Source of the DNA: Nitrospinota bacterium
GTDB lineage: Bacteria > Nitrospinota > Nitrospinia > JACRGO01
DNA length: 6,201 bases
NCBI GenBank assembly: GCA_016212295.1
Contig: JACRGO010000026.1
Coordinates: 1 to 6,201 of the forward strand
Reading direction: 5' to 3'
Positions within the stretch are counted from its first letter, which is position 1. The number at the start of each line of letters is the position of its first letter. Position numbers and translations under genes: made by a program. This document shows positions 791 through 5,903 of the stretch, one piece after another. The notes below the pieces were generated by a model. The model was not told where the DNA came from, ran no database searches, and worked only from the letters and a program-made list of their open reading frames with translations.

Positions 791-1114
791 CTATTCACAA
801 TTCAAGGTTTTGACCCCAATTCTTTCCCTGGACTTATTGGAGTAATACCCCATGTATCGCGCAGTTTGTTCTCTGGCATTGGGGACGTGGACGCTGAGCC
901 TTGCCAGAAACTCCACGGGATCAAAGCTTAAGGTTTCTTTGTCCGTTCGATAGAAGACAACCTGATTTTCCCTGTCGTAAGTAAGCCGGGCCATGTAAAT
1001 GGGACCAAGACCCACAGCATTTTGCCTGGCCCGGTACAGACCGCCAGAAGACAGGGCGTTCATCCAAGAGATTTTTTGCAAACTCTCATAAGCGAGGATA
1101 CGGCCAAGGCTCAA
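791..1114 (-). pseudogene. IS91-family transposase, C-terminal remnant
   Basis: The readable frame covers 107 residues from a TTG at 1114, with an in-frame stop just upstream. From about residue 36 it matches what I know of the C-terminal end of IS91/IS801-type (Y2, HUH) transposases: a YMARLTYD segment, VVFYRTDK, then FDPVEFLARLSVHVPN and ARYMGYYSNKSR. Full transposases of this family are several hundred residues long, with an N-terminal zinc-binding domain and a catalytic HUH/two-tyrosine domain. None of that is present, so the fragment cannot be active. The first 35 residues have no clear family match and are probably joined non-homologous DNA. The usual C-terminal SRGER-type end is replaced after NKSR by an unrelated tail, so the 3' end is also rearranged. 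It marks an old mobile-element insertion on the minus strand. Confidence 0.75.
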
Positions 1115-2039: not shown

Positions 2040-2149
2040 AAAAGTCTTTAAAATCAACTACAAAACAAATTTAACAACAGAGAACACAGAGAAAGGCTTA
2101 AAAAAACAATCTTAAAATTTTTTGTAACCGTTCACGGGGTTGCCATGAG

Positions 2150-2178
2150 AAACTGGCGAAGGCCTCATTAGCTAGTTT
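2150..2178. repeat. Small stem-loop inside the nested element
   Basis: AAACTGGC at 2150-2157 pairs with GCTAGTTT at 2171-2178, eight pairs with one G-U when read as RNA, around a 13-nt loop containing the palindrome AGGCCT. It lies between the left middle and left inner arms. Confidence 0.4.
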
Positions 2179-2180
2179 TT

Positions 2181-2283
2181 ACATCCCCCTTGGTCCCCCT
2201 TTGGTAAGGGGGAATTAAAACAGATCCCATTTTAGGGGCATTTTCCCTATTCCCCCTTACCAAAGGGGGACCAAGGGGGATGT
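2181..2283. repeat. Perfect 35-bp inverted repeat (MITE/cruciform core)
   Basis: The left arm (2181-2215) starts ACATCCCCCTTGG and ends GGTAAGGGGGAAT; the right arm (2249-2283) is its exact reverse complement. Each arm also folds on itself through CCCCCTT/AAGGGGG around TGGT, so the unit could form alternative small hairpins or one long cruciform. Perfect identity over 35 bp suggests recent insertion or selection for pairing. CCCCCTT-type palindromes are common dispersed repeats in environmental bacterial genomes as far as I know. Confidence 0.9.
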
Positions 2284-2408
2284 GGTTTTCCCCTGCAATT
2301 GAGCGTGACACCGTTTTCCTTGGCACCCCGTGAACGGTTACAATTTTTTCTTTGTGCTCTCTGTGGTGAAAAATTTAAAATATTTTTTGCTAGCTTTTTA
2401 AGGCAATT

Positions 2409-5400
2409 TTGAAAAAAAACATGCCTGGCACGACCGAAACCATTATCGCCGAAAAGGGCTTGACGCTGCTTGTTGAAAAGCAGGCGGGGGACAAACTCAT
2501 TGAAGTCACCTTCCGCATCAACGGTTCGGCTGATTGCCTTCTGCACTGGGGACTTTCCCGCCGCGCAAGCTCCGCCTGGGAGATTCCGCCTCAATCCTCC
2601 TGGCCCGAAGGGTCGGAGGCAGTTGGAAAATCAGCGGTTCATTCCCCCTTCATTGCCGGCGGTGTAGAAGGACGAATAACTTTCCGGCTGGACCGCGCGT
2701 GGAAGTTTTCCGCCTTGAACTTTGTCCTCTTCTTCCCCAGGGAAAACCGGTGGGACAACAACCGTGGCAGGAACTATATAGTCCAACTCCCTCAACCTGA
2801 AAAAAAAGGCCCCTCCCCGGCCAAGGCCCTTGAGAACGAATTGCGAGGAATAGAGCCGTCTTTTCAGGAGGTCTCAAATTTGGGCGGGGAATGCCGGCTG
2901 GCCTTCGCTGTTTGGAAAGAGGGAGGCAGGCACAACGCGGTTATTTTTTCCGATCTTGACGGTCCGCTGGTTCTCCATTGGGGAGTGGCCAAGGCCAACC
3001 GCTCCGAGTGGCTCGCGCCGCCCCAGTCCCTTTTCCCGCCGCAAACCTCGATATTTGAAAACACCGCGGCGCAAACCCCCTTTGTCTCCGTGGACGGCCT
3101 GAACCGCCTGGCGCTGAAAATAGAAGAGGCTGACGCGCCACTGGGCGTCCCCTTCGTATTAAAGCAGGAAGAGGCCGGCAAGTGGTGGAAGAAAAACGGC
3201 AGGCATTTCTTCATACCTATCGGCGCCCTTTCTCAAAAGGGCATGGGACCTCTTTCCGGCATGTCTGACGAGATAATCCACGCGGAAACGGAAAGAAACT
3301 CGTGGACCCTTATGCACCGCTTCAATCTGTGCCATGATCTTCTGGATGAGGCGCTGGGAGAGGACGGGCTCGCCTTCCTGTTCGTGTGGATGCGTTTTTC
3401 CGCCATCCGGCAGCTTACGTGGCAGCGGAACTTCAACACCAAGCCCAAGGAATTGAGCCACGCCCAGGAGCGGTTGACGCTGAAACTTGCCGGGGCCTAC
3501 GTGAACGCGGACGAGGACGGCAGGGAAATGGTCCGTCTGGTCCTGGAGACCCTTGGACGCGGCGGGGAAGGCCAGAAAATCCGCGACGAGATCCTGAACA
3601 TCATGCACAGGCACAGGATAAAGGAGGTCTCAGGCCATTTCATGGAGGAGTGGCACCAGAAGCTCCACAACAACACAACGCCGGACGATGTTGTCATCTG
3701 CGAGGCGTACCTTGAATTCCTGCGGAGCAATGGGGACCTTTCCCGCTTTTACAAGACCCTCGAAGCCGGAGGCGTCACCAGGGAACGCCTTAGGAGTTTC
3801 GACCGGCCCATAGCCACCGGCCCTGATTTTGTCCATTACATCAAGGACGGCTTGATCCACGATTTTGAAAACTATCTGAGGCTTCTAAGGTCCGTGCATT
3901 CAGGCACGGACCTTGAGACCTCCATCAAAATGGCCGGGTATATGTTTGACGGAGAGATGCGCGGGCTGGCGGATTTCCTGTTCTGGCGCCGCAACGACCA
4001 TGGCATTTCAGTTGTGGAGGTCGTTGGCAAGACTTTAAGCGCGCGGAAGTGGGTCCGGCATAGGCTTAAGGACGAAAAGGACAGCGGAAGGACGCGCGAC
4101 CTGCTTTACCTGGATCTCGGACTGGAGGAATTCAGCCGCATGGCTGTTGAACGCGCAGCCCCTTCGCGTCTGGACAAGGACGCGCTTGCGGAGCTGGTGG
4201 GGCTGGCCCTGGAAAGCATCCGCCTCTCACACGACACCCAGGAGCTTTCCCTGGTCTCAATGCACTGGGAACGCCTCCGCAAGACAACTCCAAGGTTCAG
4301 CCCGGACTGGGCCCTTCACGCGAAATCCATCATGGACAGGCTTGGGCGGGGCTTGGGCTCCTTCATTGACCGCTATTACCGTATCTTTCAATCCAAGGCG
4401 GAGTATTTAGGCAGGGCCTTCAAGGCTGAGCCATGGTCCGTGAATCTTTTCACGGAAGAAGTGGCGCGCGGACGGCTCCCCTTTGTGCTCTCCATGCTTT
4501 TGCGCCGCCTCGATCCCTTTCTGCGCAAGGCCGCCAGCCTCGGCGATTGGCAGATAATCAGTCCCGGCGGAGGAATAGGCCGCGTGGAGGCGGTGGAGCA
4601 TTTGAAATCCGTCCAGGGAGCAAGCTTCAACGGTCCTGTGGTTATAATGGCGGACAAGGTAGGCGGCGACGAGGAGATTCCAAGGGAGGTGACTGCGGTG
4701 ATCACTCCGGACTCCACTGACATCGTGTCCCATGTTGCGGTGCGGGCCAGAAACGCCCGGCAGTTATTCGCCACTTGTTATGATCCGGAAAAATTCCAGA
4801 ATCTGAAATCCTTTCACGGACGTTTTCTACGCCTGGAAGTAAATGCCGCGGGCGATGTAATCGCGAAGGAGGACGCGGAGGGCGGGGCGCCTTCAGCGCC
4901 GGTCCCGAAAAAAATAACGCTCGCCCCTTTCACCCCGCCGGAGCTTCTCTCATACGCGGTTCCAATGGAAAATTTCCGGGAAGGGCTGGTGGGCGGCAAA
5001 TCAAACACCTTGAGAATACTGCGGGAGCGGCTGCCCGAATCGGTCGGCCTCCCCTTGTCCATGGCCCTGCCCTTCGGAGTCCTGGAAAAAGTCCTTGCCC
5101 ACCCGGTCAACAAGGACATAGCGGAAAAATACGAAGGGCTTCTTTTATGCGATGGCGTGGGTTCCCAGGAGAACCTGGCCGATATCCGCAAGACAATTTC
5201 CTCGCTCAGGCCGCCGGATGAGGTGGGGGCAGCCATCCTCAAGCAGATGAAGGAGACCGGCCTTGATTGCCATAAGGACTGGGACAAGGCTTGGGAGCGC
5301 ATCACTCATGTGTGGGCCTCGAAGTGGAACGACAGGGCATACCTAAGCCGCAAGGCAATGGGCATTCCCAATGAAGGCCTCTTCATGGCGGTGCTCATTC

Positions 5401-5903
5401 AGCAGGTGGTGGAAGCGGAGTACGCCTTTGTCGTCCACTCCGCCAATCCCTTCAGCGGGGACAAGAAGGAGTTGTACGCCGAGGTGGTGCTGGGGCTTGG
5501 GGAGACCCTTGTAGGGAACTATCCAGGCAGGGCCTTGAGTTTCGTCGCCTCCAAAACCGCCCCTAAGCCGCGCCTTCTGGCCTTTCCGGGAAAAAGCCTC
5601 GGCCTCTACGGCAAGGGGCTTATCTTCCGCTCGGATTCCAACGGAGAAGACCTGGCGGGTTACGCCGGGGCAGGGCTGTACGACAGCGTCCTGCTGGAGC
5701 CGCCTTGCGAAAGGGCCATGGATTATTCCGAAGAGCGGCTGGTTTGGGACGAAGGTTTCAGGAACGAGTTTTTGGCGGGCGTCACGAAGATCGGGACGCT
5801 GGTGGAAAAGGCCATGGGCGGCGTTCCCCAGGACATCGAGGGCGCCTACGCCAAGGGAAAATTCCATGTGGTCCAGACCCGCCCCCAGGCCGGCGCGGCG
5901 TGA
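2409..5903 (+). CDS. gwd: Alpha-glucan, water dikinase (starch-phosphorylating GWD, CBM45 type)
   Basis: GWD (EC 2.7.9.4) moves the beta-phosphate of ATP onto glucose C6 of starch-like alpha-glucans and the gamma-phosphate to water. It has 1164 residues, against about 1400-1460 in plant GWD1. Two CBM45-like starch-binding modules each show HWG, then W and PPQS: W47/W57 (about 20-130) and W191/W201 (about 160-270). The central region holds EWHQKLHNNTTPDDVVI (414-430), nearly as in plants. The phosphohistidine loop is DIVSHVAVRARN with catalytic H775. The C-terminal PPDK-type ATP domain (about 855-1164) keeps GGKSN (862-866), GLGETLVGNYPGRA, FRSDSNGEDLAGYAGAG (from 1073), QDIEG and the final QTRPQ. 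All key motifs are present with no frameshift, so it should be active. The CBM45 pair excludes PWD, which has CBM20. The start is uncertain: TTG 2409 has AAGG 5 nt upstream, whereas ATG 2421 has no ribosome site; an in-frame TAG lies at 2391. No glucan gene adjoins it. Confidence 0.95.
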   Translation: MKKNMPGTTETIIAEKGLTLLVEKQAGDKLIEVTFRINGSADCLLHWGLSRRASSAWEIPPQSSWPEGSEAVGKSAVHSPFIAGGVEGRITFRLDRAWKFSALNFVLFFPRENRWDNNRGRNYIVQLPQPEKKGPSPAKALENELRGIEPSFQEVSNLGGECRLAFAVWKEGGRHNAVIFSDLDGPLVLHWGVAKANRSEWLAPPQSLFPPQTSIFENTAAQTPFVSVDGLNRLALKIEEADAPLGVPFVLKQEEAGKWWKKNGRHFFIPIGALSQKGMGPLSGMSDEIIHAETERNSWTLMHRFNLCHDLLDEALGEDGLAFLFVWMRFSAIRQLTWQRNFNTKPKELSHAQERLTLKLAGAYVNADEDGREMVRLVLETLGRGGEGQKIRDEILNIMHRHRIKEVSGHFMEEWHQKLHNNTTPDDVVICEAYLEFLRSNGDLSRFYKTLEAGGVTRERLRSFDRPIATGPDFVHYIKDGLIHDFENYLRLLRSVHSGTDLETSIKMAGYMFDGEMRGLADFLFWRRNDHGISVVEVVGKTLSARKWVRHRLKDEKDSGRTRDLLYLDLGLEEFSRMAVERAAPSRLDKDALAELVGLALESIRLSHDTQELSLVSMHWERLRKTTPRFSPDWALHAKSIMDRLGRGLGSFIDRYYRIFQSKAEYLGRAFKAEPWSVNLFTEEVARGRLPFVLSMLLRRLDPFLRKAASLGDWQIISPGGGIGRVEAVEHLKSVQGASFNGPVVIMADKVGGDEEIPREVTAVITPDSTDIVSHVAVRARNARQLFATCYDPEKFQNLKSFHGRFLRLEVNAAGDVIAKEDAEGGAPSAPVPKKITLAPFTPPELLSYAVPMENFREGLVGGKSNTLRILRERLPESVGLPLSMALPFGVLEKVLAHPVNKDIAEKYEGLLLCDGVGSQENLADIRKTISSLRPPDEVGAAILKQMKETGLDCHKDWDKAWERITHVWASKWNDRAYLSRKAMGIPNEGLFMAVLIQQVVEAEYAFVVHSANPFSGDKKELYAEVVLGLGETLVGNYPGRALSFVASKTAPKPRLLAFPGKSLGLYGKGLIFRSDSNGEDLAGYAGAGLYDSVLLEPPCERAMDYSEERLVWDEGFRNEFLAGVTKIGTLVEKAMGGVPQDIEGAYAKGKFHVVQTRPQAGAA

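Follow-up and report, generated by a model that had tools for sequence, protein, structure and literature searches.

A bacterial GWD1-family dikinase and a TIM-barrel protein as its candidate phosphatase partner

Alpha-glucan water dikinase (GWD) has been described as an enzyme found only in starch accumulators, and the primary plastid has been proposed as the setting alongside which it evolved (PMC6260743). The same report, the genome paper of Goniomonas, mentions homologues in passing in "some bacteria", which may have obtained the gene by lateral transfer (PMC6260743). A disulphide near the catalytic histidine of plant GWD has also been described (PMC12892837), and in a paper from 2025 the mechanism by which glycogen is phosphorylated still counts as unknown (PMC13011383). 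The bacterial gene presented here resembles plant GWD1 (EC 2.7.9.4) in its two CBM45 modules, its helical core, its phosphohistidine and ATP domains and its catalytic histidine, but the protein is shorter, lacks a transit peptide and carries the motif LFATC instead of CFATC, whereas bacterial GWDs as a group differ from the plant enzyme in their glycogen-type gene neighbourhoods with a TIM-barrel partner. Related loci encode a second dikinase, which shares the ordinary ATP-domain order with plant PWD (EC 2.7.9.5) but starts with a TIM barrel and not with CBM20.

The TIM barrel itself shares its fold and nine ligand positions of the trinuclear metal site with endonuclease IV, MJ1311 and CbiR (AP endonuclease 2 superfamily), although it is only about 15-20% identical to them and genomically tied to glucan dikinases. 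Its proposed role, the removal of phosphate from glucan, would be that of SEX4 and laforin, which are cysteine-based dual-specificity phosphatases of unrelated fold and chemistry. No description of the association between bacterial GWDs and the TIM barrel appeared in the literature searched, most subscription journals lying outside that search, and the bacterial family with its partners is a variant that we did not find described there. We consider it likely that this variant consists of a GWD1-family enzyme that phosphorylates an alpha-glucan, with the barrel as its own candidate phosphatase.

The window, that is, the whole stretch of 6201 bp that was analysed, corresponds to an entire contig (C194) of a host genome of 3.74 Mb in 237 contigs, with 90.5% completeness and 0.4% contamination; it contains no Rfam match and no tRNA. 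The uninterrupted GWD reading frame (Table 1) starts with a TTG codon, with AAGG at about position 2400 and an alternative ATG start at 2421. The Ig-like N-terminal module of GWD1 (PF23166) occurs twice in the protein (4e-47 in Pfam), as CBM45-type modules, the first of them being beta-rich in the AlphaFold2 model. Between these modules and the phosphohistidine domain lies the GWD-specific core, where residues 272-709 match the solved core of a plant chloroplast GWD (PDB 9ha9) with E=2e-91 and 43% identity, and where EWHQKLHNNT is found at residue 414. The sequence DIVSHVAVRARN follows at residue 771, its histidine being residue 775, whereas RSDSNGEDL (5628-5654) stands 3′ of GLGET and the C-terminus of the protein is QTRPQ. 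The AlphaFold2 model, obtained with 38 aligned relatives, has a mean pLDDT of 85; a fold search with it confidently matched the ATP domain alone, and the absence of 9ha9 from those matches is no argument against the sequence match of the core. The full GWD1 plan put forward in the preliminary description is therefore borne out by the Pfam domains, by the 9ha9 match and by every motif it had named, including the two HWG motifs 144 residues apart. With a likeness far beyond chance, the gene is, judged from its sequence, a genuine member of the GWD1 family.

Table 1. Features of the window and of related loci
Feature	Position	Strand	Details
IS91-type (Y2) transposase fragment	791-1114	-	PF04986 3.5e-6, NF033538 1.1e-5
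MITE-like element, nested inverted repeats/arms	2112-2354		~30 copies across further host contigs
GWD1-type alpha-glucan water dikinase gene	2409-5903	+	1164 aa, uninterrupted
First CBM45-like module	2433-2792	+	HWG at residue 46; one of two PF23166 stretches; repeats aligned
Second CBM45-like module	2874-3221	+	HWG at residue 190; best PF23166 stretch, residues 156-271
Helical core matching plant GWD PDB 9ha9	3222-4535	+	EWHQKLHNNT at 3648-3677
Phosphohistidine domain	4548-4871	+	PF22973 (GWD1 phosphohistidine domain), 2.7e-35; catalytic His775 codon 4731-4733
LFATC	4764-4778	+	in the phosphohistidine domain
ATP-binding (PPDK_N) domain, rearranged order	5283-5888	+	PF01326 1.7e-22; GLGET near 5493
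Second dikinase adjoining GWD (related loci)	L013:10718-14326; L036:10600-14079; L040:10600-14271; L078:10581-14099		these four and about 18 further loci

The catalytic histidine (H775) and the residues of the ATP loop are invariant in 38 diverse bacterial GWDs, and a home-made profile detected two CBM45-like modules in 35 bacterial GWDs, one in 38 and none in one. RSDSNGEDL comes after GLGET in 69 of the 69 GWDs in which both were found and before it in 18 of 18 second dikinases; the ATP-domain segments of GWDs thus show a permuted order relative to the second dikinase. The window protein and most bacterial GWDs carry LFATC where plant GWD1 has the redox pair CFATC, a motif seen in none of the bacterial redox loops matched. 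A thioredoxin-controlled cysteine pair is a regulatory trait of plant GWD1 and does not define the catalytic family, but with LFATC instead of CFATC a thioredoxin control of the plant type is unlikely in bacterial GWDs.

Regarding the origin of the contig, a MITE-like repeat of about 230 bp stands upstream of the GWD gene, and its numerous copies elsewhere in the same genome tie the contig to the bacterial host. These copies, together with the presence of GWD in a genome of the same genus (G002, where the counterpart extends across two contigs and is 55-61% identical), rule out a eukaryotic or contaminant contig. The relic flanks of the gene are transposon debris from the same genome, and its placement in a genuine bacterial context, as first described, stands. 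A small protein encoded at 175-705 shows a signal-like N-terminus, a run of "RFEQVDK" heptad repeats and a membrane segment, and has a relative on another host contig (G000:C37). In a small tree, the RpoB of the host, that of the congener and those of two class-mates together make up a lineage of their own, close to Nitrospirota and Desulfobacterota.

The gene neighbourhoods of related GWDs are the most informative part of the analysis. Among 67 loci in which the sequence runs on for 1000 bases or more past GWD, the next recognised gene on the 3′ side encodes a TIM barrel of 270-300 aa in 25 cases and, in 20 others, a protein of about 1150-1220 aa that joins this barrel to a second GWD/PWD-type dikinase; neither form is next in the other 22, a few of which, such as L038 and L056, do have a barrel by other evidence. 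A barrel, either alone or fused, occurs in 47 of 79 loci, and a GH13/debranching-type protein of 430 aa often follows the barrel or fusion gene. At least one alpha-glucan gene is in reach of GWD in 43 of these 79 loci (GT5 glycogen synthase in 22, GH13/debranching-type in 28, GH57 branching enzyme in 10, GH77 in 4 and GlgB in 3), and the 36 loci with no recognised glucan gene in reach are in many cases short contigs.

The second dikinases combine the Pfam domains AP_endonuc_2, GWD1_pHisD and PPDK_N with a PWD-like core, and Pfam detected no CBM20 in them, their N-terminus being the AP_endonuc_2 barrel instead. A C-terminal segment of PWD matches them at 36-44% over about 310 residues and the bacterial GWDs at about 30%, a likeness of this segment that may serve as a lead. 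Some second dikinases are shortened (L051:11017-13086, L056:10375-12750 and L059:3509-5593), with barrel and core but seemingly ending before the phosphohistidine domain; they seem to be either a natural barrel-plus-core form or broken genes. Directly after the second dikinase, some loci encode a protein of 340-380 aa with no Pfam match (L061:13929-15059, L013:14244-15389), which in L047, L086 and L089 seems to form a single chain with the GH13/debranching-type protein.

The association between GWD and the barrel is also found at the level of whole genomes. In the phylum of L010, 11 of 198 genomes have the barrel; all 11 belong to the 13 that carry GWD, and the 185 GWD-free genomes lack it (Fisher p about 2e-16, genomes counted without kinship correction). 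Several genomes carry GWD and barrel on different contigs, and thus linkage alone does not explain this co-occurrence. In an alignment of 21 barrels, residues H71, H105, E136, D167, H170, H196, D207, H209 and E243 (L012 numbering) are invariant. Nearly all members of a set of 50 barrels and fused barrels, including the one encoded by the host itself (G000:C12:1586-2383), retain the nine positions HHEDHHDHE (5 His, 2 Asp, 2 Glu). In profile searches, H105, E136, D167 and H170 align to E. coli endonuclease IV, whereas H71, H196, D207 and H209 align to other members of the superfamily; the full set of nine presumably corresponds to the ligands of the three metals of endonuclease IV. A structural model of the barrel (pLDDT 90.8) confirmed the TIM-barrel fold, with MJ1311 (3wqo) as the closest structure (Z 24), followed by epimerases (20-22) and endonuclease IV (about 20).

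The host genome offers further enzymes of alpha-glucan metabolism: a GH13/debranching-type partner on C128, 69% identical to that of L018; two GH57 enzymes, namely a branching enzyme on C73 and a GH57-DUF3536 protein on C189; a full-length alpha-glucan phosphorylase on C101; and TreY, TreS and maltokinase on C138. GWD, barrel and GH13 lie on different contigs, so no operon is visible in the host, and the second dikinase is absent from this genome. A search for glycogen synthase (PF08323) found none in the host genome, which is 90.5% complete, whereas PF08323 matched over the cut-off in G002 and in all 28 other GWD genomes tested, one of these matches being weak; either the host gene sits in the roughly 10% of the genome that was not recovered, or this species has lost that route of glucan synthesis. 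A GlgE route is not claimed for the host, as TreS and maltokinase are present but no GlgE-like GH13 is among the four PF00128 matches. Of the host enzymes that the preliminary description proposed to look for, branching and debranching-type enzymes and a candidate phosphatase (the barrel) were found, but no PF08323 glycogen synthase. The link it drew to alpha-glucan storage is upheld by the neighbourhoods of relatives and by the host glucan enzymes.

The view of this GWD as an isolated bacterial oddity is not supported. A scan of named bacterial and archaeal genomes confirmed the enzyme in at least 116 bacterial genome stretches, spread over at least six named phyla; the 80 stretches with the greatest similarity to the query were retained. 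By their titles, these stretches belong to Nitrospirota, Desulfobacterota, Planctomycetota (including the anammox bacteria Scalindua and Anammoxibacter), Verrucomicrobiota, Acidobacteriota and Fibrobacterota, and some carry the labels Gammaproteobacteria, Omnitrophota or Deferribacteres; the majority are metagenome assemblies, and such labels may err. Only 2 of 77 genomes of the host phylum (the host and G002) have GWD, and its phosphohistidine domain exceeds the cut-off in 13 of 198 sampled genomes of the phylum of L010, a patchy occurrence that would fit a gene prone to transfer or to frequent loss. No GWD relatives were detected in the viral contigs searched, and the matches in the plasmids searched were PEP-synthase-type ATP domains only (24-37%).

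A recent horizontal transfer of GWD from an alga or a plant into this bacterium, unaccompanied by any bacterial system, could account for the plant GWD1 plan of the protein and would agree with the lateral transfer into some bacteria already suggested (PMC6260743), but we find it hardly credible. It clashes with the number of bacterial stretches and phyla that encode the enzyme, with the co-occurrence of the partner genes and with the lack of the first cysteine of the plant redox loop in bacterial GWDs. It clashes as well with a tree of the core region (FastTree, SH-like local supports, rooted on the paralogous second dikinase), in which, with one plant sequence, a sampling biased towards the query and a distant root, plant GWD lies apart from every bacterial GWD sampled (local support 0.77-0.80), and the GWD of the window pairs with that of the congener, deep within the bacterial clade. 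This tree argues against a recent plant or algal donor and leaves the ancient direction undecided. Of the two histories proposed at the outset, recent acquisition from plants or algae thus loses ground, with the single plant sequence outside the sampled bacterial clade, and long residence as a separate bacterial clade, together with patchy spread between bacteria, becomes the best-fitting alternative.

A bacterial family could still have taken another substrate, and a GWD-derived dikinase acting on a different polymer or a small molecule, with the glucan genes as incidental neighbours, would be compatible with the absence of a detected glycogen synthase in the host and with an ATP domain common to PEP synthase and to rifampin phosphotransferase, which acts on a small molecule. 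We regard this as improbable in view of the repeated linkage of GWD to GT5, GH57, GH13 and GH77 genes, of the GT5-family matches in the other GWD genomes tested, and of the CBM45-like modules and the GWD core (43% identity), which to our knowledge are known only with glucan dikinases. As for the barrel, both its Pfam match and its structure assign it to a superfamily that includes epimerases as well as endonuclease IV, and epimerases score level with endonuclease IV, so that the fold alone cannot part a phosphoesterase from an isomerase. A sugar isomerase or epimerase, with phosphoglucan made without any dedicated reset, is nevertheless an unlikely reading, though one to be taken seriously, as all nine endonuclease-IV-type ligands are conserved in the barrel, whereas single-metal epimerases keep just part of the set, and as the barrel shows a weak NCBIfam likeness to the phosphodiesterase CbiR. 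The nine-ligand set favours a phosphoesterase, and the barrel is most likely, on these sequence grounds, a candidate phosphoglucan phosphatase, which would remove phosphate from glucan.

Under the preferred reading of a glucan dikinase with its own phosphatase, the window GWD would hold an alpha-1,4-glucan by its two CBM45-like modules and pass the beta-phosphate of ATP, by way of His775, to glucosyl residues, probably at C6 by analogy with the plant enzyme, with release of AMP and inorganic phosphate. Dephosphorylation would then fall to the endonuclease-IV-like TIM-barrel metalloenzyme, and the second, PWD-like dikinase fused to the barrel may join in where a lineage has it. Phosphorylation would in this manner prepare a glucan that is dense or of low solubility for attack by amylases, debranching-type enzymes and phosphorylase, before the system is reset. 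The more ambitious proposal of a full bacterial phosphoglucan cycle, made of GWD, a PWD-like dikinase and a phosphatase of the endonuclease IV superfamily, the last two often fused, is one that we hold tentatively, with doubts slightly stronger than our confidence.

The breadth of the bacterial GWD family, its constant partner and, in some lineages, the second dikinase make the question of where starch phosphorylation began a testable one. They also predict that the glucan stored by anammox, magnetotactic and sulfate-reducing bacteria is phosphorylated, and the barrel is a candidate for a glucan phosphatase of a new class. If the full cycle were true, the two-dikinase switch of starch, believed to have appeared along with plastids, would be older in bacteria or shared with them. 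Altogether, our observations suggest that a phosphate switch acts on the sugar store of some bacteria as well.
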